Shown: positions 14,025 to 64,000 of the stretch, piece by piece | Layout: each line of letters opens with the position of its first letter | Numbering within the stretch: position 1 is the first letter of the stretch | DNA from: a virus | Reading direction: 5' to 3' (one strand) | Virus record (IMG/VR): IMGVR_UViG_3300049596_000182 | Location: 50,225-114,224 of that record | Length of the DNA: 64,000 bases | Program-made: the position numbers and the translations under genes | Notes under the pieces: generated by a model | Databases searched by the model: none | The model's input: only the letters and a program-made list of their open reading frames with translations | Told to the model about the DNA's origin: nothing

Positions 14025-14756
14025 CTATTCGTTTGTTTGAATTCTAAACTGAGCACTTTGAACTGCAGATTGATTCTCTGTATACATCGCTAGGTTTTGA
14101 ACTGTTAAGTCTAACAACTCATCTTCTAGGTATGTTTCTAGTTCACAGTCTTGATCATAAGAGTTCTGTCCGTCTAACATAACATATCCAGTCTTATTAA
14201 TATACACTGGGTATCTCATGTACGATACATATATTTGCTTAGGTGTAAATGTACCATCAGTAAATATAGAAATCTCATCAGAAGATATAGAATTAAACGT
14301 TTCTTGATATTCAAATGATGGTCTATAGTGAGTGTTAGTTAAGCAAAATTGTAAATCGCCATGCTTAGTAAGATCTCTATTAATCCATATTTTTCTATCT
14401 GTACATCTACCCTTATCTGCTAATACATAACTATCTATATAGAACATGTATTTTGGAGTGAGTAAATGAATATCTGCAGACCATTGATTTAACTCAGCAT
14501 TTAGTAGTGTTAAATTTAGGGGTTGATGGTTATAATTTACCACCAAACTTTGTAGGTCTTCGTAACGCTTTTTGAAAGCATCTAGACCTAAACCAGAAAC
14601 TGTGTTTTGACCGTCAACCTTCTGTTTAATCAACTTGATCTGAGCCTCATTCAAGGCTAAAATCTTATCTTCCAATTGAATTTGTTGATGCTCGTTAGTT
14701 GATAGTTTATTTAGTTTCTGGTCAATTTTATATAATAAACTATCTACGGGTATCAT
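14025..14756 (-). CDS. Structural protein, probable head-tail connector component
   Basis: 243 residues. The first ~75 residues form a predicted coiled coil (IDQKLNKLSTNEHQQIQLEDKI). The C-terminal region carries the pattern PKQIYVSYMRYP...DCELETYLEDELLDLTVQNLA, which I associate with connector or ring proteins of crAss-like phages, where D-CELP-x-H-EEIVDLAV is common. It overlaps the preceding gene by 4 bases (ATGA type). Its place two genes after the capsid gene supports a connector role. Confidence 0.6.
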   Translation of the reverse strand: MIPVDSLLYKIDQKLNKLSTNEHQQIQLEDKILALNEAQIKLIKQKVDGQNTVSGLGLDAFKKRYEDLQSLVVNYNHQPLNLTLLNAELNQWSADIHLLTPKYMFYIDSYVLADKGRCTDRKIWINRDLTKHGDLQFCLTNTHYRPSFEYQETFNSISSDEISIFTDGTFTPKQIYVSYMRYPVYINKTGYVMLDGQNSYDQDCELETYLEDELLDLTVQNLAMYTENQSAVQSAQFRIQTNE

Positions 14757-15721
14757 ACAGAAGCTATTTTCTTAGTTTTTAATTTTCCTTCCAAGGTTAA
14801 TAATTCGTCTTGGTTATCTTCATCAGCAAGGAATTTAACTAAATCATCTTCATCCTTAGCAATCTCAAACTCTCCTTCATACACCTTACCATTAGGTTTT
14901 AAACGATATACTGAGTGAGCAATAGCTTGCTTAACCAAGTCTTTAATATGGAGTAAGTTTTCCTTCATATCTGCAAATCTGCTGAACACCTCTACAGGGT
15001 TTAAACCAGCATGTTTACCATTCTTGAATTCTGTTTGTTTTAATAGGTTGTCTACCTGATTGTATACAGAGTCTTCTTTAGTATCTTCTGTAACAGGTAA
15101 TCCTAACAATCTTGCCACCTTGCGTTTCTTCTCAGGACTCATTGAATCAAACTTGACAATAGCCTTGTTGATCAATTGTTTCTTCTTGAATATCACTGCA
15201 TTTTCAATTTCATCATCAGCAACGTAAAATTGTGTATCTGCAGGAACTTCACCACGTTCCCAAGCCTGATAGCTAGAGGCAATTGTTGGATGAACTCTTA
15301 ACCATGCAAAAGCTAATTCTTGAAAAGGATTAGAGAAATCAAAGTAGTTATCACCATCCATCAACTTAACAGCTTGTACATGTAATGTATCATCTGTAGA
15401 TGTAGACAATCCATAGTTCCAGAAACTAGAACGAGGACCTAAATCAACATCACCTAAATTAGCTTCAAGTTTTTGTTTAAGTGCTGTAACTCTTTCAACT
15501 TCCATTTCTCTTTCAAGACTGTCACCCATTCTACGAATGTATGCAGCATTTGGATCTAATCCAGTTCTGTACTGTCCATCAAGTTCCTTGTAAGGATACT
15601 TAAATACACCTGTTCCAGGGATCCTGGTTAAACCTTTCTGTGCAAGTCCACCTTGCATAGTTTGTAACTGAGAGTTGTTGTAATCTTTCTTTAACGTAGA
15701 GATTTTTCCTATCTTACCCAT
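14753..15721 (-). CDS. Structural-block protein of unknown function
   Basis: 322 residues, mostly helical and charged. Visible parts: a basic start (MGKIGKISTLKKDYN), a region with DPNAAYIRRMGDSLEREMEVERV, an aromatic stretch (FWNYGL, YFDFSNPFQELAFAWLRV), and a Lys-rich helical second half (FKKKQLINKAIVKFDSMSPEKKRKVARLLG). It is the first gene after the structured region behind the capsid gene. It could be an internal head or connector protein. No family recognised. Confidence 0.6.
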   Translation of the reverse strand: MGKIGKISTLKKDYNNSQLQTMQGGLAQKGLTRIPGTGVFKYPYKELDGQYRTGLDPNAAYIRRMGDSLEREMEVERVTALKQKLEANLGDVDLGPRSSFWNYGLSTSTDDTLHVQAVKLMDGDNYFDFSNPFQELAFAWLRVHPTIASSYQAWERGEVPADTQFYVADDEIENAVIFKKKQLINKAIVKFDSMSPEKKRKVARLLGLPVTEDTKEDSVYNQVDNLLKQTEFKNGKHAGLNPVEVFSRFADMKENLLHIKDLVKQAIAHSVYRLKPNGKVYEGEFEIAKDEDDLVKFLADEDNQDELLTLEGKLKTKKIASV

Positions 15722-17469: not shown

Positions 17470-18732
17470 TTATTGAAACCATGAAGTTGTAGGCTTAGGC
17501 TTATTTCCTGTTTTTGTAGAACTTTTGCTAACTTGTCTAGCAACTTCACCAAACAATTCATTTGACTTTTTGGTGATACCAGTCTTTTGTATTGTAGATA
17601 GAGTAGGATCCTTTTCTAAAATCTTTAGTAACAGTCCAATCTTAACCTTTGTTGCATGGTTTTCTGGACGTTTAAGTTCTAGAATAGTACGATCAAAATC
17701 TGTGAGAGTCTCACCAGATGCTGTCTTATACTTATCTACTAACAGGAAATCTTGTAGTTCACCAGCCAATTTAGGGTTCAGAGGAATACCGTCAAACTCT
17801 TTTGTTTTTAGTTTTTCTTGTAATACTGACTGAACGTTTTGAAAGTATTGCTGTTTAACAGCAGCTTGCTGTTGTAATCTTCTTTCATTCTCTTGCTCCA
17901 TTTCTTGAAGCTTTGCAGCTTCTTTCTTAACCAACACTTTGTGGTGTTTAGTAGCAACAGTTTCCAAATCACCGTAATTCTTAAGTCTTTCAACTTCTGT
18001 TGTAACATCCTCAGGATCAAATCCTTGATCGTTGAGTGCTTGTTTAATTACTGCAATTTGGTTAGCTTCGTCTGCTAAATCCATCTCAGCAAAACTCTTT
18101 ATATTATTAAAAGTACCGAAATACTCTTTTGGATCTACTCCTTTTACAAATATGGCATCAAACGCTTGTTGATAATCTTCTCCAAATTGACCAATGAAGT
18201 TGTTTACCACCTCAATAGCTCCTTTCTTCTTCTCAGCTTGGAAACGCTCAAGAAATTCTTCAGGAGTGGAAATTGCAACATCCTCTTCATCTTCATCGTT
18301 GGTAAATACACCAAGTTTGAAAAGATCTTTAGATAGAGATGTGAATGGACTAGCTGGTTCATCACCTTCTATTTCTTCATCATCTTCTGTATCTACAGGA
18401 GCTTTTGCTTTGGGAGCTGGAGCAGGAGAATCATCTTCATCCTCTTCCTCTTCATCATCTCCACCTAGTAAAAAGTCCTGTAAAGACTTTGCATTATCTT
18501 CTTTCTTTTCCTCATCATTCTCTTCTGAAGCATCAGCAGGAGCTGGTGTCTTTTTTGCAGGTTTAGGTGCAGGAGCAGGTTCATCTTTAATATCTTGGAT
18601 ATCATCAGGATTGGTAGTAGAAGTTTCAGGAGCAAATAAATCGCTTAAAAGTTCTTGGTTTCCCATACCCATTTCCATAGTATCTTGAATACTAAAGTTT
18701 CCCATTGATGGGTTTTCTAGATTTTCAGCCAT
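17470..18732 (-). CDS. Acidic scaffold-like protein
   Basis: 420 residues. The N-terminal ~130 residues are extremely acidic and Pro/Ala rich (repeated APAPKP, EEEEDEDD). The rest is helical, with a coiled-coil segment rich in Gln/Glu around residues 270-300 and a basic C-terminal tail (KSSTKTGNKPKPTTSWFQ). Acidic N-terminus, coiled coil and basic C-terminus immediately upstream of the capsid gene are the hallmarks of phage scaffolding proteins. A promoter match lies upstream at 18764-18794. Confidence 0.7.
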   Translation of the reverse strand: MAENLENPSMGNFSIQDTMEMGMGNQELLSDLFAPETSTTNPDDIQDIKDEPAPAPKPAKKTPAPADASEENDEEKKEDNAKSLQDFLLGGDDEEEEDEDDSPAPAPKAKAPVDTEDDEEIEGDEPASPFTSLSKDLFKLGVFTNDEDEEDVAISTPEEFLERFQAEKKKGAIEVVNNFIGQFGEDYQQAFDAIFVKGVDPKEYFGTFNNIKSFAEMDLADEANQIAVIKQALNDQGFDPEDVTTEVERLKNYGDLETVATKHHKVLVKKEAAKLQEMEQENERRLQQQAAVKQQYFQNVQSVLQEKLKTKEFDGIPLNPKLAGELQDFLLVDKYKTASGETLTDFDRTILELKRPENHATKVKIGLLLKILEKDPTLSTIQKTGITKKSNELFGEVARQVSKSSTKTGNKPKPTTSWFQ

Positions 18733-18852: not shown

Positions 18853-19383
18853 CTAATCAAGATTGTTTGTAATTGTGTCATTTATTAGCCTGTAACTCCT
18901 AATTGGAGCTAAATCAGTGAGTGTAACTTGTTGAATGTCAACACCCCACTTCCTTGCTTCAACCCTTACCTTCTTAGTTAATGTGTTATCAAGTTCTGCA
19001 TCTGTACATTCTTCCAGGGACATAGCCATGATTACATTTTTTATGACACTTTGTGACATGTCAGCTATTGCATCTTGGGCATCAAACACTTCTAGCAGGA
19101 ATGTTTTTACATCTGATATCTTGTATTTGATTACACCCTTGACAACAATGTTCTGTTTATCACTAGTATACAAAGATTGTGCTGGAAGACTTAATGTTGT
19201 CACAACGACATGTTGCTCAATCACCTCATCTGCAAACGGTATCTTTACATGGAATCCAGGTTTTAATAACTTTTTAAACTTGCCAAATCTTAGAAGCACA
19301 GCCTCCTCGTAATCCCTAATAATAATACCAGGGAGTACGTCTGAGCCAAATTGTAACACAACGTCAATTAGCCTATCTAACAT
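18853..19383 (-). CDS. SPFH/band-7 (stomatin/prohibitin-like) domain protein
   Basis: 176 residues. The region from about residue 20 reads as an SPFH domain: GIIIRDYEEAVLLRFGKFKKLLKPGFHVKIPFAD, then VVTTLSLPAQSLYTSDKQNIVVKGVIKYKI and a C-terminal helix with VRVEARKWGVDIQQVTLTDL. Stomatin-like proteins assemble at membranes into rings. Unlike cellular members it has no clear N-terminal transmembrane anchor, only a mildly hydrophobic start. It lies 2 bases from the portal gene, inside the packaging/head block, so it may act in head assembly at the membrane or as a virion component. Confidence 0.8.
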   Translation of the reverse strand: MLDRLIDVVLQFGSDVLPGIIIRDYEEAVLLRFGKFKKLLKPGFHVKIPFADEVIEQHVVVTTLSLPAQSLYTSDKQNIVVKGVIKYKISDVKTFLLEVFDAQDAIADMSQSVIKNVIMAMSLEECTDAELDNTLTKKVRVEARKWGVDIQQVTLTDLAPIRSYRLINDTITNNLD

Positions 19384-45528: not shown

Positions 45529-45894
45529 ATGTACAACGTTAGATTTGGAGAAACAATTGAAAAGGGAGACCTCATTGCTATTGCTAATGGTAATGATTTC
45601 TCATTAGGTATTTATTTTGGAAGAGGAATGGGAGGAACTGTTCAGTATTACATGCCTAATGCTGTTAAGCATTGTATGGAACGTTTTAACGTAAAAACAG
45701 CAGAATTAGTTGCTGAAGGAAAACCTACAGAACCTCTTAAGTTAAATAGATTTTGGAAATGCTATGTTAACACACCAAGAGACACACGAATAATGAAATT
45801 AAACAGAGAAAACATTACAAGTCAAAAAGACATAGAAGAAATTATGGTAGCAAAAGAAGCACTAAAAAACTTTAACATTGACGTAAAATACTAA
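45529..45894 (+). CDS. Hypothetical protein of the replication block
   Basis: 121 residues, beta-rich (YNVRFGETIEKGDLIAIANGNDFSLGIYFGRGMGGTVQYYMPNAV), with a helical end (SQKDIEEIMVAKEALKNF). It looks like a small barrel domain. It lies 3 bases before the rIIA-like gene. No function assigned. Confidence 0.6.
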   Translation: MYNVRFGETIEKGDLIAIANGNDFSLGIYFGRGMGGTVQYYMPNAVKHCMERFNVKTAELVAEGKPTEPLKLNRFWKCYVNTPRDTRIMKLNRENITSQKDIEEIMVAKEALKNFNIDVKY

Positions 45895-45896
45895 TC

Positions 45897-48215
45897 ATGA
45901 TACTAGAAAAACAGACAGAAGCAACTATCCTACAAGAAGGAGAATCACAAGAATCAATTGGAATGTCATTAGATCTGGACTCAGCTCAGGTGCTAATGCA
46001 AATGTTAAGTAAGAATTTATATTCAGATGCAATAGGTTCCACTATTCGTGAGTGTGCCTCTAATGCATTAGACAGTCACAGAAGAGCAGGTATTGATAAA
46101 CCAATCATCGTTAGCCTTAATAGGAATAACCATGATAACTATGAATTCTCTGTAGAGGATTTTGGTATTGGTCTAGATGCAGATGATGTAGTTAATATCA
46201 TCAGCAAATACGGTAAGAGTACAAAACGTGATAGCAACACAGAATTAGGCATGATGGGTCTTGGTTTCAAGGCCCCACTAGCATACACATCTACCTTCTA
46301 TTTCACTGCAAGGAAAAATGGAATGGAAAGAAAATACATGATGTATGAGGGAGAAGAAGTTAATTCAATTGATTTACTTCATGAGACTCCCACAGATCAG
46401 CCAAACGGTGTTAAGATAACTATACCAGTTGACTATTACGACAGACATGATTTTGTACGTAAAATTAGAGAACAGCTAGCTTATTTTGAGAATGTATATT
46501 TCAATGTACTAGATAATGAGGTGAAGAATGATTTCACCATCCATAGATCTGAGTACTATCAAGCTTCTAGCTTATCTAGAGATAGCTATTTACATGTTTG
46601 TTTAGATAACGTGTATTATCCATTGGATTTCAGCAAGTTAGGTATTGATAGAATATCTATTCCTGTAGGTTTGAGATTCAGTCTTACAGATGGTTTGTTC
46701 CCTACACCAAACAGAGAATCCATCAGATATACCAAGGAAGCAAAAGATATCATCCTGGCTAAGATTGGTAAGATGGTTGATCATTTTATTACCAAATACA
46801 ATGAAACTGTTGCTGATTCTGATGATTTCATGGCTGTATTGAGATATCATGCTACAAACAGAAGATATGTTAATGTTCCTGGTAAGGATAATCATAACTT
46901 TGATCTAACTGATATAGTTAAACACGGTACTGTTCTAATCGCTTCTCCTAAAGTGAGCAGTCTAAAGAAGCTTGACTTACAAAAACTTGTCAGAAACAGA
47001 GAATACATTCTTGGTGAGTATGATAAGAAGTTTGAGCTTTACAATGGTAGAATGTCTCAAGTGAAGAGTTATTGGAGAACTGGTGTTGATATTATAAACA
47101 GGAATGATGAACCACACTATTTTTATTCTGAGAAGATTAGTGGTGCTATGAAGGATTATATTAAGAGTATAGCCCCAAGAGGTAGACATGCATATTTCAT
47201 TAGAAAAGTGAAGACATTTAAATTGGGTAGTCTTACAAGGATGAATGATTATGATACTTACATGAAGCTTCTTGACTTACAGAATTATCCAAGAACTGAG
47301 TGGAGAGAACTTATTGCAGAGTTTCAAACTGTATTAGCTTCTCTTACAAAGACATTCATCAACCTTGATGAAATGGTAATACCACAAGCTTTCCTAGATT
47401 CTAGGAAGAAGCAAAAGGGAATCACTGTTACTGTTGGTGGAACAAAGGTGAGACGTATTAAGTTAGAAGGTGAGGTGATTGGTAGACAATTAGTGGATTT
47501 AGAAAGAAGTGTAGATGGTAAGAATTCTAAACTGGTTAGCAAGATTTATGGCCTTGCTGAAATGCATAAGTATAACAAGCTTGTTATCTATGGTACCCAG
47601 GCAGATATTGCTACTATGGACAAACTATATTCAATTATCAATAAGAGTAAGATAGAACTAGCTGTATTTTCTGAGAGAGAGCTTAAGACACTATCTACCA
47701 TTAATATACACAATCTAATCCCTTTAAGCAAGTTTATGGAAGGTAAAAACAAACCATTCAAGAGAATTCTAACAGCCTATCTAATTAATGAATTACATAA
47801 TAAGTTTAGTAGATCATTCATTAGAAGAGAAAAAATAAGTCTCATCTCTACAGATTTATATGAAAAGATGAAAAAACTAAATGACTACAAGAATGAACAT
47901 CATTGCCATGGTAATGCTACAGTGCATTTAGCTATGCTAGAAGTGGCTCAAACACACAACTTATTTGATATGGAGATATATCATGAGTATGTGGAAGTGA
48001 AGAACCTTCTAGAAAGATTACCATTCATTGAAGCTATGTCAGACAAAATACAGAGTTATGATAATGATAACTCTCCGATAATCAGTGCATTTCGTGATCT
48101 ATTCAAGTATCATGGACATAGAATTGACTGGAAACACTACAACATTCGTATTAACGAAGAGGTTGTAGAAGAGTTAACAGAAGCTTCTGTAGAGCAGTTG
48201 GTAGAGAATTTATAA
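45897..48215 (+). CDS. rIIA-like GHKL ATPase
   Basis: 772 residues. The N-terminal ~210 residues form a GHKL ATP-binding domain: RECASNALDSHRR (N-box) near 51-63, DFGIGLDAD (G1 box) near 88-96, and GLGFKAPLAYTS (G2 box) near 121-132. This N-terminus and length agree with T4 rIIA, which protects T4 from exclusion and early lysis. It is followed by the rIIB-like gene, the usual pair. The remainder is helical with no recognised domain. It probably counters host defence at the membrane or DNA. Confidence 0.8.
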   Translation: MILEKQTEATILQEGESQESIGMSLDLDSAQVLMQMLSKNLYSDAIGSTIRECASNALDSHRRAGIDKPIIVSLNRNNHDNYEFSVEDFGIGLDADDVVNIISKYGKSTKRDSNTELGMMGLGFKAPLAYTSTFYFTARKNGMERKYMMYEGEEVNSIDLLHETPTDQPNGVKITIPVDYYDRHDFVRKIREQLAYFENVYFNVLDNEVKNDFTIHRSEYYQASSLSRDSYLHVCLDNVYYPLDFSKLGIDRISIPVGLRFSLTDGLFPTPNRESIRYTKEAKDIILAKIGKMVDHFITKYNETVADSDDFMAVLRYHATNRRYVNVPGKDNHNFDLTDIVKHGTVLIASPKVSSLKKLDLQKLVRNREYILGEYDKKFELYNGRMSQVKSYWRTGVDIINRNDEPHYFYSEKISGAMKDYIKSIAPRGRHAYFIRKVKTFKLGSLTRMNDYDTYMKLLDLQNYPRTEWRELIAEFQTVLASLTKTFINLDEMVIPQAFLDSRKKQKGITVTVGGTKVRRIKLEGEVIGRQLVDLERSVDGKNSKLVSKIYGLAEMHKYNKLVIYGTQADIATMDKLYSIINKSKIELAVFSERELKTLSTINIHNLIPLSKFMEGKNKPFKRILTAYLINELHNKFSRSFIRREKISLISTDLYEKMKKLNDYKNEHHCHGNATVHLAMLEVAQTHNLFDMEIYHEYVEVKNLLERLPFIEAMSDKIQSYDNDNSPIISAFRDLFKYHGHRIDWKHYNIRINEEVVEELTEASVEQLVENL

Positions 48216-48222
48216 CAAAAAA

Positions 48223-48297
48223 GGAAATATATTGCTTATTTGCATGAATTTTTCTAAAATTTCATGCATTTTCCCTCCAAATGAGCAATATATTTCC
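48223..48297 (+). other. Large nested stem-loop between rIIA- and rIIB-like genes
   Basis: Outer arms of 19 bases (48223-48241 and 48279-48297) pair with one G-U; an inner stem GCATGAA/TTCATGC (48242-48248 and 48261-48267) extends through AATTTTTC-type sequence. An 11-base piece (48268-48278) bulges on one side. There is no T-run after it, so it is not a plain terminator. An RNA-processing or regulatory site for the rIIB transcript is likely. Confidence 0.65.
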
Positions 48298-48336
48298 AAT
48301 TTTAATACATTATTTTAAAACAAAAAACAAAACAAA

Positions 48337-49941
48337 ATGGGACTATTCAGTTTAAGCTGGTTCAAGAGCCAGAAACAAAAGCAATTAGATGAATTACAAC
48401 ATGAGATTGAGCTTAAAAGGTTAGAGAAGACACTAGAAAGATTGGATCAACAAGAGAAACCTTCTACTTACACAATAGGGGTTAGTAATCCATGGGTAGC
48501 ACCCACTGCACCAGTTTGTGTACCTGCCCCTAAGCCTTATTCCAACATTAAGATTGTGAATGATGTGCTTACAGTGGTGCTTAACGATGGTTCTATCATT
48601 ACTAAGTCTAAAGCTACAGCAGAAGACTTTAATAATGCCAGAGAATGTAAGACAGAAGCTTGTTTATTGAGCCTTGTAGGTTCTCCAGATATACTAAAGG
48701 AGAAGCAGGAAGCACAGGCTGCATATGAGAAAGCTAAGGCTATTCAGAAAGGTGTTGAGTATCTAGCTAAGTTTGATGATTTTCAGATGAAAGACGGATC
48801 TCTTTATATCAAGGGAATCAACAGAAGCATCCCACCTTTGATGGTAGATGAGTTCTTACGCATCATTGGATTTCACAGTTACAACTCTATGGACAATGTA
48901 ACAGATAGAGAAATAGATGAGGTAAATGAGCTTATCCAGCAAGACGAAGAGTATCAATCTCTTAAGCGTTTCTTTATGTGGTGTTGCTTAAATCCAAGAG
49001 CTGAGGTGGCTGACAAGCTATACAACTTCTTAAAGAAGAATAGCTTCCGTATCACTAAGCAAGGATTCTTTGTAGCATTGCGTAACGTTGTAACATTACA
49101 TGGATCTACAGAGCTAGTACAATTCATCAGCAATGCTTACAACAAGACTAAAGCTGTATGGAAGAAGAACCCATCTGACTATTTAGTATTCTTACAAGAT
49201 GGTCAATACAAAATGGTTCACAAATCTATATTTGAAGAAAAAGAAACATGCACATATTGTGATGGTTCAGGAACAGTTCCTTGTGAAGCTGATGAATATG
49301 ATGAAGACTATGATTGTTATGATGAAGATAGCTGTGATTGTCCAGAGTGTGATGGTACAGGTGAAGTTTACAAATATGATAAATCTAATTATGGTGAAGA
49401 GATTGGTAACCTAACTGAACTCTATCTTGATTTGCCTAATAGAGCAGAGAATAGATTTACAGATGCTCACACAAGAACATTTGACATCAGAATTGGTAGA
49501 CCAGTGAACATGCCTATGGAGCAGTGTAGATGGAATACTGATGATTGTGGTGCTGAAGGTTTACACTTCACATCTGATGAGATTCATTATGTAGGTTGTG
49601 GTGACACATCTGTGCTTGTACTTATCAATCCAATGAAGGTTGTAGGTATTGGTGAGAGTAAAGGTAGATGCTATGAGTATTTACCAATTATGACTGTTCC
49701 TCGTGAAGAAGCAACAACCATCTTACATGATCTAGACTTTGATACAATGGAGCTTGATGAGAGCTATGCAGTTCGCGAATTGGAAAATCTAAGTACAAAA
49801 GCTAGAGAAGGTTTTATTGCAGAAGCTAAGAAGTATGAGTTTAATCTCCCTGCTTTATCTGCTGTAGAAGTACTTAAAATTGTTAAGAGTCTTGATGAAA
49901 TAAGACAAGAAATCTCTAAGAGAATCGTAAATATTGATTAA
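48337..49941 (+). CDS. rIIB-like protein with DnaJ-type zinc motifs
   Basis: 534 residues. The region from ~65 to 110 (VLTVVLNDGSIITKSKATAEDFNNARE) matches the rIIB-like pattern, and the gene follows the rIIA-like gene. Around residues 305-341 it carries CTYCDGSG and CPECDGTG repeats as in the DnaJ zinc finger, separated by an acidic loop. N-terminus contains a coiled coil (KQKQLDELQHEIELKRLEKTLERLDQQ). Two proteins of this pair are needed together in T4. The zinc motifs suggest a chaperone-like or nucleic-acid contact. Confidence 0.75.
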   Translation: MGLFSLSWFKSQKQKQLDELQHEIELKRLEKTLERLDQQEKPSTYTIGVSNPWVAPTAPVCVPAPKPYSNIKIVNDVLTVVLNDGSIITKSKATAEDFNNARECKTEACLLSLVGSPDILKEKQEAQAAYEKAKAIQKGVEYLAKFDDFQMKDGSLYIKGINRSIPPLMVDEFLRIIGFHSYNSMDNVTDREIDEVNELIQQDEEYQSLKRFFMWCCLNPRAEVADKLYNFLKKNSFRITKQGFFVALRNVVTLHGSTELVQFISNAYNKTKAVWKKNPSDYLVFLQDGQYKMVHKSIFEEKETCTYCDGSGTVPCEADEYDEDYDCYDEDSCDCPECDGTGEVYKYDKSNYGEEIGNLTELYLDLPNRAENRFTDAHTRTFDIRIGRPVNMPMEQCRWNTDDCGAEGLHFTSDEIHYVGCGDTSVLVLINPMKVVGIGESKGRCYEYLPIMTVPREEATTILHDLDFDTMELDESYAVRELENLSTKAREGFIAEAKKYEFNLPALSAVEVLKIVKSLDEIRQEISKRIVNID

Positions 49942-60299: not shown

Positions 60300-60335
60300 A
60301 AAAAAAGCCCTCCATTTCTGGGGGGCTTTTTATTA
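60300..60335. terminator. Bidirectional terminator between convergent blocks
   Basis: AAAAAGCCCTCC (60302-60313) pairs with GGGGGGCTTTTT (60320-60331), with runs of T on both strands. It ends both the glycosyltransferase operon (plus) and the basic-protein cluster (minus). Confidence 0.9.
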
Positions 60336-60473
60336 TTTTGATAATTTCTTACCAGTCATAGGAGCCATAGGGCTCTTACCTTTGTTTCTAGTATTATCTG
60401 ATTCCCTCATATAAGGCTTATTAGGCTTAGGGTTCTTAACCTTAGGAGCTAAACGTGGTTTACCTGATTTCAT
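60333..60473 (-). CDS. Small basic protein
   Basis: 46 residues (KSGKPRLAPKVKNPKPNKPYMRESDNTRNKGKSPMAPMTGKKLSK), Lys/Pro-rich, ending in the bidirectional terminator. It begins on the base where the upstream gene stops (TAATG type). Part of the basic-protein cluster; no motif recognised. Confidence 0.65.
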   Translation of the reverse strand: MKSGKPRLAPKVKNPKPNKPYMRESDNTRNKGKSPMAPMTGKKLSK

Positions 60474-61024
60474 TAGCAACCATATTTACATTTGCTCATA
60501 GACTTACCCATCTTAGCTTTACCACTGTAGTTCTTACCAGGTTGTCTACCATAACTACCAAGTTGCATAGATACAGTTTTACCAGACTTAGCAGCAGGGG
60601 CTTTTTTAGCAGCTCTAGCAGCTTTACGTTCTGCTCTAGCTTCTTGACGCTCTTCTTTAGTTTTACCACCAGTTAAGACATTTTTGATAGCTTGACCAGC
60701 TTTTTGAAGAGGACTAGGTCCACCTTGGAAATATCTTTGTCTTTGAGCACCAGTCATGTTTGATACACATCCGCCTCTTTGAGCTTTCTTAATAGTTTTA
60801 CCAGCTTTAGCCTCAGGAGCAGATTTAGCAGCTTTTTTAGCAGCTCTTTTTTCAACTCTTTCTTCTTTGCGTTCTGCTCTTGCATTTTCACGCATTTGCT
60901 TGTTACCAGCTCTTCTTAATTGACCTTCAGTACCACCTCTAAAGAAATTAGTTCTCTCTTGAGAAGACATGTTTGATACACAACCACCCCTTTGGGCTTT
61001 TTTAACCTTTTTAACAGTTGCCAT
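60473..61024 (-). CDS. Lys/Arg/Ala-rich basic protein with two KKAQRGG repeats
   Basis: 183 residues. Two copies of a module beginning KKAQRGGCVSNM (about residues 7-40 and 78-112), with S-x-Q-ER-x2-F-x-GG or similar after each, separated by Lys/Ala helices. The end has a Cys pair (KCKYGC). Charge is very high, so DNA binding or packing in the virion is probable. It resembles the other two KKAQxG proteins in this cluster. No family recognised. Confidence 0.7.
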   Translation of the reverse strand: MATVKKVKKAQRGGCVSNMSSQERTNFFRGGTEGQLRRAGNKQMRENARAERKEERVEKRAAKKAAKSAPEAKAGKTIKKAQRGGCVSNMTGAQRQRYFQGGPSPLQKAGQAIKNVLTGGKTKEERQEARAERKAARAAKKAPAAKSGKTVSMQLGSYGRQPGKNYSGKAKMGKSMSKCKYGC

Positions 61025-61036
61025 TTTTATAAGTTT

Positions 61037-61537
61037 TTATTTTTTAACAATTTTTTTACTAACTTTACCACCAGCTTTTTTCTTTGGTGTTGCACCTTTA
61101 GCATTTATGATTGATTTTACAATCTTTCTGCCATATTTTTTAGGTTTTGCAGGATAATCTTTATATACACCTGATTCTAATCCTTCTAAATACCTACCAG
61201 TACCTTTGAATGTTTTCTTACCACCAGCATAGCCAGTGGTATCAACAGCTAGTCTTCTTTTTGGATAACGAACACCTTTAGTTTCATAAACTAATGAGTC
61301 ACCAGACTGAGCTTTTTTTGCTCTTGCAGCTTTTGCACGCTCTCTTAATGGTATAGACATTTTGCTTGGTGGCTTAACTGAACTTGGTTTAACTGAACGT
61401 AAAGCTCTTTTTTGTACACGAGCAGCTACTCTTTCAGCCCTTTCAGGGTCTTTCTTTTCTATTCTGTGTATTCTGTCATCTTGTGATTTTCTTTTAACAA
61501 GATGATCACCAAGTTGTGCTTTTTTTACCTTTGCCAT
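61037..61537 (-). CDS. Basic protein with KKAQxG motifs
   Basis: 166 residues from ATG 61537; an upstream ATG at 61588 would overlap the next gene and adds no conserved sequence. The start MAKVKKAQLGD is like the starts of its neighbours; a second copy KKAQSGD is near residue 76. A segment with IEKKDPERAERVAARVQKRA aligns with the protein at 62142-62888. Tail is Lys-rich. A virion or nucleoprotein role is suspected. Confidence 0.7.
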   Translation of the reverse strand: MAKVKKAQLGDHLVKRKSQDDRIHRIEKKDPERAERVAARVQKRALRSVKPSSVKPPSKMSIPLRERAKAARAKKAQSGDSLVYETKGVRYPKRRLAVDTTGYAGGKKTFKGTGRYLEGLESGVYKDYPAKPKKYGRKIVKSIINAKGATPKKKAGGKVSKKIVKK

Positions 61538-61538
61538 T

Positions 61539-61979
61539 TTAACAGTTCCATTTACGAAGTGATTTATTAATTCTGCTGTTAGGGTCATTAGCCGTTTTAG
61601 CAGACGTGAGTTTCTTTTTCATACCTGACATTCTAGAACAGAAAGACTTACGTCTACTTGCTGCTTTAGAACCAGCTTTGAGTTTTGAAGGTTTAGTAGT
61701 AACAGCTGTCTTCAGCTTACTACCTGGATTAGCTTTTCTATAAGAAGCTACACCCTTAGCGTTTAAACCACCTTCAGGATTCTTACCTTCTTTTCTTTGC
61801 CATGCTGGGCTAACCTTACCACCGTCCTTTAATGTAGAGCCTTTAAACTCTCCCTTCTTTTTAACAAGAGGACCATTAGGAACAGGAGTGATTTTACCAC
61901 CAGTTCTAAGAACTCCCTTACCAACATAGGCTTCAGCCTTTTGTGGGTTATATACCTTTGTTTTAGGAATTCTAGCCAT
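61539..61979 (-). CDS. DUF6321-like basic protein
   Basis: 146 residues. The block GGLNAKGVASYRKANPGSKLKTAV and KAASRRKSFCSRMSGMKKKLTSA...NDPNSRINKSLRKWNC matches small basic phage proteins known as DUF6321, often found in T4-like phages of water bacteria as virion-associated or unknown. Very basic with two cysteines. It lies 1 base from the preceding KKAQ gene. Confidence 0.72.
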   Translation of the reverse strand: MARIPKTKVYNPQKAEAYVGKGVLRTGGKITPVPNGPLVKKKGEFKGSTLKDGGKVSPAWQRKEGKNPEGGLNAKGVASYRKANPGSKLKTAVTTKPSKLKAGSKAASRRKSFCSRMSGMKKKLTSAKTANDPNSRINKSLRKWNC

Positions 61980-61980
61980 G

Positions 61981-62142
61981 TTATTTACCTTTACGCTTTG
62001 CAGCTATCTTCTTAAATGTTTTAGCAAGAGCTTTAGCCCTACCTGTACAACCAGGTTTTGTGATAGGAGTGCATTTGCCTTCTGTACCTCTAGCCTTAAT
62101 AGACTTAGTTACTTTCTGCATCCACTTTTTATCTGTAGCCAT
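61981..62142 (-). CDS. Small basic protein
   Basis: 53 residues (TDKKWMQKVTKSIKARGTEGKCTPITKPGCTGRAKALAKTFKKIAAKRKGK) with two cysteines in a CTPITKPGC loop. It follows the pattern of short basic phage proteins found with DUF6321 members. Shares a base with its upstream neighbour (TAATG). Confidence 0.65.
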   Translation of the reverse strand: MATDKKWMQKVTKSIKARGTEGKCTPITKPGCTGRAKALAKTFKKIAAKRKGK

Positions 62143-62888
62143 TATTTTTTCTTTTTCATTTTACCACCCATCTTCATCTTTGTAGCACCTAACTGTTTGT
62201 CCTTCTTAAGACTTACAGAGGTTTTAACGTTACGAGGAGGTAAGTTCATTTCTTGAACCTTAGTCCAAGCACCTTTAGGATCAACAGGTCCTACACGCTT
62301 ATTAGAAGCAGTTAATCCAGCCTGAGCTTTCTTAATCTTTCCACCAAGTTTCATACCACCAACTTTATTAACAGAAGATTTTCTTGGTTTTTCTAAACTC
62401 TTCATCATCATTTCTCTCCTTCTAGCAGCATCACTGTCCTTACTCATAGAACGAATAGATAATCTATCTCTTCTAGATCTATCAAATAAATCACCTTCTA
62501 TTCCTCCTGCCATACCAGTTCTTCCTTTAGGTGTAAGAACAGGTGGTTTTTGAACTTGTGTTGTATCACCATCTTGAGCCTTCTTAACTTTAGCACCCTT
62601 CTTAGCAATAACACCACGTCCTTTAAGGATGTCAGCCTTAGTAATCTTACCATCCTTGTTTAAGTCTGGGAATGATTTACCATCTTTAGCTTTAGGTAGC
62701 ATGTTGGAAGCTCTAGAGCCACTGCTCTGAGCAACTCTTTTACCACGTTCTAAACGTGTAGCTCTTTCCTTCATGCGATCAGATACTTTATCAGCTCTGT
62801 CAGGATTTTTTTCTGCTATTCTACCAAGTCTTTTGTATTGTCCTCTTCTAAGTTTAATACCAGATTGGGCTTTTTTAACTTTTGTCAT
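62142..62888 (-). CDS. Basic protein with three KKAQxG motifs and an EF-hand-like loop
   Basis: 248 residues. KKAQSGI starts at about residue 5, KKAQDGD near 103, and KKAQAGL near 187. A loop DLNKDGKITKAD (about 75-86) has the calcium-binding EF-hand spacing D-x-N-x-D-G-x-I-x3-D. IAEKNPDRADKVSDRMKERA (about 23-42) aligns with the protein at 61037. The end is almost pure Lys/Met/Gly. Its role is unknown; calcium-dependent binding in a virion or nucleoprotein complex is possible. Confidence 0.7.
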   Translation of the reverse strand: MTKVKKAQSGIKLRRGQYKRLGRIAEKNPDRADKVSDRMKERATRLERGKRVAQSSGSRASNMLPKAKDGKSFPDLNKDGKITKADILKGRGVIAKKGAKVKKAQDGDTTQVQKPPVLTPKGRTGMAGGIEGDLFDRSRRDRLSIRSMSKDSDAARRREMMMKSLEKPRKSSVNKVGGMKLGGKIKKAQAGLTASNKRVGPVDPKGAWTKVQEMNLPPRNVKTSVSLKKDKQLGATKMKMGGKMKKKK

Positions 62889-62893
62889 CTTAT

Positions 62894-62974
62894 TTATATA
62901 TTAGATTGTTCTAGACATTTAGGACATTGTCCTTCCTCAAGAGCTATTTCATGTATGGAGCAATGATCGTTCAT
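62894..62974 (-). CDS. Tiny zinc-binding-like protein
   Basis: 26 residues (NDHCSIHEIALEEGQCPKCLEQSNI) with C-x2-H and C-P-x-C, enough for one zinc ion. It starts on TAATG with the preceding gene and is followed by the 62888 gene after 5 bases. Too short for certainty. Confidence 0.45.
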   Translation of the reverse strand: MNDHCSIHEIALEEGQCPKCLEQSNI

Positions 62975-63123
62975 TACTTCTTACTCTTAGCCTTGATTTT
63001 CTTTTCCTGCTTAAGCATAGCAGCTGTAGGTTTCTTACCTGAGCCTTTAGCAGCACGAATGTTATCCCACAACCCACGTTGTGAAACAGAACCATCCTTG
63101 CGTTTAATCATTTCTTTTGCCAT
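62974..63123 (-). CDS. Small basic protein
   Basis: 49 residues (AKEMIKRKDGSVSQRGLWDNIRAAKGSGKKPTAAMLKQEKKIKAKSKK). The pattern RKDGSVSQRGLWDNIRA..GSGKKPT is common in small proteins near DUF6321 genes in phages. Very basic. The role is unknown. Confidence 0.65.
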   Translation of the reverse strand: MAKEMIKRKDGSVSQRGLWDNIRAAKGSGKKPTAAMLKQEKKIKAKSKK

Positions 63124-63126
63124 AAC

Positions 63127-63420
63127 TTATTGATTTTCAGCTTCTTTAATAACACCAGCTTCTACTGATCTAGCTAAAACTTGCTCAACCGTATTGTTAG
63201 CTCTGTTAGCTAAAAGGATACGAGCAGCTTCTTCTGTAGCTAATTGTGCACGTAGTGAGTTAAGGATTACACCAAACTCAGCACCGTTGATAACAAAGAT
63301 ATCATCTGTATTCCAGGTGTATTTCTTGTTAGGATCGTACTTAATGGGCTCTTGAACAGGTTCTTGAATATTTACTTCTTCTTGACCTGGAGTTACTTCT
63401 TGTACTAATTCTTCTGACAT
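63127..63420 (-). CDS. Conserved small protein, first gene of the basic-protein cluster
   Basis: 97 residues. Acidic and Gln/Pro-rich N-terminus (EEVNIQEPVQEPIKYDPNKKYTW) then a conserved helix-rich part NTDDIFVINGAEFGVILNSLRAQLATEEAARILLANRANNTVEQVL, common in Bacteroidota phages as far as I recall. A perfect promoter is just upstream (63446-63477), so this begins the operon. Confidence 0.65.
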   Translation of the reverse strand: MSEELVQEVTPGQEEVNIQEPVQEPIKYDPNKKYTWNTDDIFVINGAEFGVILNSLRAQLATEEAARILLANRANNTVEQVLARSVEAGVIKEAENQ

Positions 63421-63445: not shown

Positions 63446-63477
63446 CAAAGATATGTATTTCTACAATATCTACCAAA
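63446..63477 (-). promoter_or_regulatory. Perfect Bacteroidota promoter of the basic-protein cluster
   Basis: On the minus strand TTTG (complement of 63474-63477), 20 bases, then TATCTTTG (complement of 63446-63453), an exact fit to TTTG-N20-TAnnTTTG. The leader to the ATG at 63420 is about 20 bases. Confidence 0.75.
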
Positions 63478-63486
63478 TTTATTTTA

Positions 63487-64000
63487 CTATCTGAACACCT
63501 TCTTTTCCTTCCAAGCTTGATCGTAGTGTATATTCTTATGTGCACCATCATAAACAAGTCCAAAATGGTTTGATAACTTAGTTAAAAAGACATTTTTAGC
63601 ATCTTTATCACATACAAATCCACCTGAATATCTATGTTGTAAGATTCTAGATCCGTTATAATCCCCTAAAGATATTTCCTTACTACGAGGATTAAGATTG
63701 TATCCTTTATGTAGGAACGCTTGACCTAACACTGTAGGACCTGTAACATCTAATGAACTAATGCCATGATTATTAGTCCTAATATTTTTAGCACTTATGT
63801 CAATAGCTTTTGCAATTATTTCATCTCCTGGTTTAGCACACATTACAGCATTATATAAGAAAGACTTATTAGAAGGATCATCTCTAACAAACACTCGATC
63901 AACCCCTTCTGTAAGTTCATCATACGATACTAGAGGAATCTGTGAGAAATCACCGTAACATCCTCCATATACATTTAATATACAATATCTCCAGAAGTCA
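63487..64000 (-). CDS. Partial GT32-like glycosyltransferase
   Basis: The frame is open from the stop at 63487 to the right edge, beyond the GTG at 63894. The upstream residues DFWRYCILNVYGGCYGDFSQ match the GT32/OCH1-type core (D-x2-RY-x-ILY-x-YGG-x-Y-x-D), with YGDFS where the DxD normally lies. Downstream it has GPTVLGQAF. It probably transfers a sugar onto a lipid, glycan or protein. Only the C-terminal ~170 residues are seen. It reads into the promoter of the basic-protein cluster. Confidence 0.75.
   Translation of the reverse strand, partial: DFWRYCILNVYGGCYGDFSQIPLVSYDELTEGVDRVFVRDDPSNKSFLYNAVMCAKPGDEIIAKAIDISAKNIRTNNHGISSLDVTGPTVLGQAFLHKGYNLNPRSKEISLGDYNGSRILQHRYSGGFVCDKDAKNVFLTKLSNHFGLVYDGAHKNIHYDQAWKEKKVFR

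Follow-up and report, generated by a model that had tools for sequence, protein, structure and literature searches.

A KKAQxG motif shared by unrelated basic proteins of a Crassvirales phage, a candidate N-terminal packaging tag

Introduction

Close to the right end of IMG/VR virus record IMGVR_UViG_3300049596_000182, three adjacent minus-strand open reading frames (ORFs), here called B, C and F, encode basic proteins in which the hexapeptide KKAQxG recurs. The window analysed is the last 64 kb (64,000 nucleotides) of this 114,224-base record, and the locus raises the question of what so short a motif does on several small proteins encoded side by side. A sequence-only reading of the window had taken the products for a previously undescribed family of phage nucleoproteins or virion-packed proteins, with the motif as a possible targeting, cleavage or binding signal.

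Results

The motif and its N-terminal position

The seven copies of KKAQxG claimed for the three proteins were confirmed; composition shuffles gave a mean of 0.0098 copies and a maximum of one. All are exact and lie on the minus strand: three in F (KKAQSG at 62859-62876, KKAQDG at 62568-62585 at the joint after an EF-like module, and KKAQAG at 62316-62333 at the joint before a module named GPVDP), two in C (KKAQLG at 61508-61525 and an internal KKAQSG at 61301-61318) and two in B (KKAQRG at 60986-61003 and an internal KKAQRG at 60773-60790). As had also been noted, the first copy of each protein stands at its N-terminus: MTKVKKAQSG in F, MAKVKKAQLG in C and MATVKKVKKAQRG in B. The longer segment reported for two of the proteins likewise holds as a BLAST match (RLGRIAEKNPDRADKVSDRMKERATR against RIHRIEKKDPERAERVAARVQKRALR).

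Five scans of IMG/VR viral contigs yielded about 200 related loci (196 in the motif count). They were fetched using the cluster modules, which biases the sample towards them, and the counts describe this family rather than all Crassvirales; the shuffled controls preserve composition, not relatedness. Among 100 non-redundant cluster ORFs the motif occurs 56 times, one of them as KRAQxG, against 0.2 expected, and a wider set of 443 non-redundant proteins contains 155 copies, spread over 123 of them (0.8 after shuffling), KKAQ being the top tetrapeptide preceding xG. N-terminal copies follow the consensus M-x-x-[IV]-KKAQ-x-G and internal ones G-x-K-[IV]-KKAQ-x-G. The sequence-only reading had staked its idea on conservation, and both motif and genes are present and conserved in the relatives.

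The N-terminal tag is found on 80 proteins, whose sequences over the 60 residues past the tag fall into 41 bodies not joinable by BLAST, a number that is an estimate bounded by the detection limit of BLAST. Single-linkage clustering of whole tagged proteins had been tried and was replaced by this procedure, as it returned one group, the modules being shared among proteins. KKAQ is encoded by 21 different DNA 12-mers with codon use near background, so selection on it acts at the protein level; this codon diversity, together with the unrelated bodies, disfavours mere common descent of the tag. A tblastn search of 50,697 phage records with the QRGLW module, a composite and two of the three motif proteins produced no match. 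The annotated phage collection yielded no isolate bearing the tag, all tag-bearing sequences being uncultured, and in the literature no mention of KKAQ in connection with phages was found.

Modules, fusions and joints

The internal copies lead to the modular build of these proteins. In the related locus L034 the GPVDP module is a separate gene of 67 amino acids (aa) that starts MKKVKKAQAG, whereas in the window it forms the end of the 248-aa F, to which it is joined through GGKIKKAQAG; N-terminal and internal copies thus fit one history, and internal copies at module joints are consistent with relics of fused tagged genes. The fused proteins contain 29 pairs of adjacent modules; an exact KKAQxG separates 10 of these pairs (0.04 after shuffling) and a joint-class motif of any sort 28 (10 after shuffling). 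We put the weight on the exact motif because the broad joint class (KxGG and the like) is partly expected in lysine- and glycine-rich sequence. The cluster ORFs are mosaic and reshuffled among phages whose major capsid protein (MCP) is 95-100% identical. The proposed undescribed family therefore stands in so far as the motif is abundant and conserved, but the cluster is no single homologous family: it is a mosaic in which mobile modules and unrelated bodies have one tag in common.

The same motif in a large late protein

The motif also occurs in P0001, a protein of 1087 aa encoded left of the window, flanked by the tail gene block on one side and the RNA-polymerase genes on the other (the muzzle, or tail, gene nearby was assigned from position and PHROG 'virion structural' matches). 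Among 18 homologues the motif keeps a constant place behind an N-terminal domain that ends in FMKxHGKAF: 10 have exact KKAQxG, seven KKA[AEK]MG, and the remaining one has an insertion there; further copies lie deeper inside, for example GGKLKKAQVG ahead of a glycine-rich, membrane-segment-like stretch. P0001 had no match in the 50,697 phage records, and P0002 a marginal one only. P0002 (G000 45829-49647) is a late protein of 1272 aa with repeated DGGWL and AQKGK motifs, strongly variable among relatives; it contains a zincin-like HEVKH motif and a DUF6782 match below the cut-off. In crAss001, the cargo proteins gp45 and gp46 are encoded between the tail and RNA-polymerase genes (PMC10172136), a place equivalent to that of P0001-P0003, and likening P0001 to this cargo is an argument from position.

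Virus identity and late-gene setting

Judged from its genes, the record is an environmental Crassvirales phage known from DNA alone. It encodes an MCP, a portal, a large terminase (TerL), a ring protein and giant RNA-polymerase proteins, the last of these, with a lysin, farther left in the record. Its proteins match the Crassvirales profiles PF23898 (MCP, E=5.6e-29) and PF24228 (E=1.4e-10) as well as phrog_6547 and phrog_6681, and hhalign relates them to crAss001 gp47 and gp50. Among 36 long relatives, 35 have a Crassvirales portal and 33 the DUF6321 domain described below. One in-frame TAA lies inside the portal matches of G027, G028 and G030, for which an assembly error, an intron or frameshift, or stop reassignment is possible.

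A direct repeat of 172 bases (97.7% identity) links G000 1-172 with window positions 63829-64000, and the record is classed as linear. The shared repeat points to a circular or circularly permuted genome, in which the left-end late operon continues into the right-end cluster. Relatives bear this out: there the left-end genes LE3824-LE3366-LE2664-LE2241-LE1960 stand immediately upstream of H, with which the cluster begins. The cluster of the window's lineage closes the late operon, following the lysis genes. The single promoter ascribed to the set is a Bacteroidota-type element (TTTG-N20-TATCTTTG, 63446-63477, minus strand) 26 nt upstream of H. Of 15 loci compared, 11, counting the window itself, have its pattern, TTTG-N19-21-TAnnTTTG, ahead of the H-type gene, and patterns of this type number 8 in the window against 2.7 expected. 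The promoter is thus conserved, but the relatives show the cluster to be continuous with upstream late genes. A terminator hairpin at 60302-60331 does close the set; it sits in the gap where two genes converge and is able to act on either strand.

A second lineage of Crassvirales, whose MCP is about 20-26% identical to that of the window's lineage, carries the module cluster within the head block. The cluster is flanked there by homologues of w14753 (14753-15721) and of the ring-protein-like w14025 (14025-14756), which are direct neighbours in the window. Both lineages keep, between portal and MCP, the strongly acidic and probably coiled-coil protein w17470 (17470-18732), likely a scaffolding protein by its composition and position. 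The structural block was searched for a maturation protease, and the gene between portal and MCP proved to encode this acidic scaffold-like protein. Profile searches of the portal-MCP block for such a protease found only an SPFH protein, the acidic scaffold-like protein and the MCP, an absence that is not proof. The SPFH/Band_7 protein (18853-19383, E=1.5e-25) lies between the portal and scaffold-like genes, an odd site for a membrane-scaffold type.

The DUF6321 protein and its marine relatives

The neighbour described as DUF6321-like is indeed a member of that family: D matches PF19846 with E=4.7e-20 and 72.4 bits against a gathering cut-off of 28.5, and matches PHROGs 727, 4689 and 3477. Identity of D and its relatives to a marine virus sequence reaches 86%. 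DUF6321 occurs in more than 500 phage records, mostly of marine cyanophages and pelagiphages; in pelagiphage HTVC115P and cyanophage P-HM2 its genes belong to the structural blocks, with capsid and terminase genes adjoining where inspected. The C-terminal end of gp137 of cyanophage S-CREM2 is a DUF6321 domain (E=3.5e-10). Four unique peptides of gp137 were found in caesium chloride-purified virions (PMC10665884 Table 3), in which gp136 was likewise detected (PMC10665884). For DUF6321 the model shows a small, helical domain, predicted with moderate confidence, for which the fold search gave no PDB relative, and in the literature DUF6321 was not found mentioned. While the marine proteins share the domain of D and its relatives, in Crassvirales it is one module of a mosaic basic cluster, often beside KKAQxG-tagged genes. 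Several DUF6321-bearing or neighbouring marine phage proteins (L041 7140-8504, L041 3981-5231 and L044 2302-3015) start MKTFEQFTEG, MKNLFQFLAEAG or MQTFSMFFSEDAG; these starts resemble what we take to be the T4 capsid targeting sequence (CTS).

Genes of the cluster

The cluster comprises eight minus-strand genes. The first, H (63127-63420, 97 aa), is conserved, untagged and acidic (isoelectric point, pI, 4.3), so the description of a set of basic proteins applies to the other seven, with pI 10.7-11.1 and net charges of +12 to +47. The ratio of nonsynonymous to synonymous substitution (dN/dS) is 0.23-0.39 for H. G (62974-63123, 49 aa, dN/dS 0.07-0.09) is a basic QRGLW module (SxRGLWDNIRA) with at least 381 relatives in viral contigs. 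F (62142-62888, 248 aa, basic) comprises the N-terminal tag, a helical RLGRIAEKNP module, an EF-hand-like loop (DLNKDGKITKAD) and the GPVDP module; AlphaFold2 predicts helices at residues 15-55 and the remainder mostly with low confidence. The loop fits the 12-residue pattern DxNxDGxIxxxD, and we regard it as a loop-like motif only, with putative calcium binding, because its Dockerin_1 match (E=0.04) is under the cut-off. In F and about 50 relatives ILKGRGVI comes next after the loop, and the EF-like module, with at least 531 matches, is among the commonest in these phages.

E (61981-62142, 53 aa, dN/dS 0.07-0.10) is a basic KWMQK module, and the basic D (61539-61979, 146 aa, dN/dS 0.00-0.05) combines an NPQKA/PVPNG module with the DUF6321 domain. 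C (61037-61537, 166 aa, basic), with its N-terminal tag and internal KKAQSG, shares the segment RIHRIEKKDPERA with F; a longer ORF extends to 61588, but it overlaps the neighbour and relatives begin MAKVKKAQ, placing the start at 61537. B (60473-61024, 183 aa, basic, dN/dS 0.36-0.76) contains KKAQRGGCVSNM in two repeats and a C-terminal GRQPGKNY..KCKYGC module. The last gene, A (60333-60473, 46 aa, basic, dN/dS 0.09-0.22), is kept in relatives and is 95-100% identical in close ones. The dN/dS ratios mark the cluster genes as real and under constraint: the QRGLW, KWMQK and DUF6321 genes range from 0.00 to 0.10, whereas the tagged genes reach values of about 0.3-0.8. Searches for DNA-binding folds (HU/IHF and others) gave no profile or fold match, the fold search covering the DUF6321 model alone.

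Discussion

We tentatively favour the proposal that the cluster encodes late, modular, fast-recombining basic cargo proteins of the virion and that KKAQxG is their N-terminal address, or packaging tag. The sequence M-x-x-[IV]-K-K-A-Q-x-G would be recognised by a component inside the assembling head, the candidate receptor being an acidic scaffold or a portal-proximal cargo complex (to name the scaffold-like w17470 is a guess), and would load unrelated bodies into the head, from which the cargo would probably be ejected with the DNA into the host; where tagged genes fuse, the tag would persist as an internal joint. Packaging, receptor, ejection and any host effect are inferred. Possible, and held with less confidence, is the further claim that one tag loads dozens of unrelated, swiftly exchanged proteins for host delivery, a system of the T4 kind but of independent origin, common to small cargo and a large ejection-type protein. 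That the proteins are packed in virions, as the sequence-only reading supposed, has gained indirect evidence, from the gene context in three unrelated phage groups, the DUF6321 virion protein and the P0001-family site; for its nucleoprotein alternative the basis is the high positive charge. Among the three roles then offered for the motif, targeting best fits one N-terminal tag on unrelated bodies.

The tag is proposed as a cargo tag because an N-terminal element, unrelated basic bodies and rapid exchange match the pattern of the T4 CTS. The internal proteins of T4 bear a short N-terminal tag on otherwise different small basic proteins, and the set varies among related phages (PMC9026906, PMC7697877). 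T4 IPI-IPIII resemble the present proteins in joining one tag to unrelated bodies and in varying between phages with near-identical heads. They differ in that KKAQxG is also internal and present in a protein of about 1100 aa, and in that no maturation protease was found among the structural genes scanned and packaging is presumed. The motif itself, compared by eye, bears no resemblance to the T4 CTS, and we do not class it as a member. Polyvalent proteins are multi-domain injected phage proteins; they too fuse many modules, and P0002 has enzyme-like pieces, whereas the cluster proteins are small and basic with no recognised enzyme domain.

Several findings weigh against a packaging tag. About half of the KKAQxG copies are internal. 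In the window's lineage the cluster follows the lysis genes, outside the head block, and where the second lineage has it within that block most clusters are without KKAQxG, their joints being mostly KYQxGG or KMKxGG, which shows that the modules do not depend on the tag everywhere. The sole virion detection concerns an untagged DUF6321 protein, at low coverage, in an unrelated myovirus. Comparison of P0001-P0003 with crAss001 gp45 and gp46 by phmmer and hhalign on single sequences detected no homology. We know of no crAss001 counterpart of the KKAQ cluster genes.

The strong charge of seven of the eight proteins, the two invariant lysines of the motif and the long low-confidence stretches would also suit non-specific DNA-condensing or nucleoid-like proteins, with KKAQxG as a repeated DNA- or RNA-binding element and any packaging occurring via the DNA. 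We consider this unlikely, as charge alone fails to explain the exact A-Q-x-G, the N-terminal placement and the fixed site in P0001, and no known DNA-binding domain was found. The conserved Bacteroidota-type promoter and the fast turnover of the bodies could instead point to unpackaged host-takeover or early proteins, expressed by the host RNA polymerase and carrying a localisation or partner-binding motif. The position of the cluster at the late operon end or within the head block, the motif in the late P0001 family and the DUF6321 genes in the structural blocks of other phages make this distinctly improbable.

Proteolytic maturation, in which a phage protease would cut within [IVFL]KKA-[Q]-x-G, removing a leader (about 36 residues in P0001) and splitting fused modules, is at least as doubtful. 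It would account for the motif between modules and just past the short N-terminal domain of P0001, and T4 likewise strips off its tags with a maturation protease (PMC7697877). Such cleavage is possible but unsupported: the portal-MCP block yielded no protease, the sole hint being HEVKH in P0002 with its sub-threshold DUF6782 match, and neither 'protease' nor 'cleav' occurs in the text of the crAss001 structure paper (PMC10172136). Very improbable is an artefact in which MA[TK][IV]KK is an A-rich translation start, or the DNA a joint that aids shuffling, with no function in the protein; the N-terminal copies are A-rich and the modules often recombine, but the synonymous codons vary and the internal and P0001 copies are not starts.

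If the packaging-tag reading is right, a tag on about 40 unrelated bodies would provide a rule by which cargo could be predicted from the sequences of hundreds of uncultured phages, and DUF6321, a widespread family, would gain a function in the virion that is testable. A large internal cargo has been reported for crassviruses (PMC10172136), and the tag may be an answer to how they select its small components.

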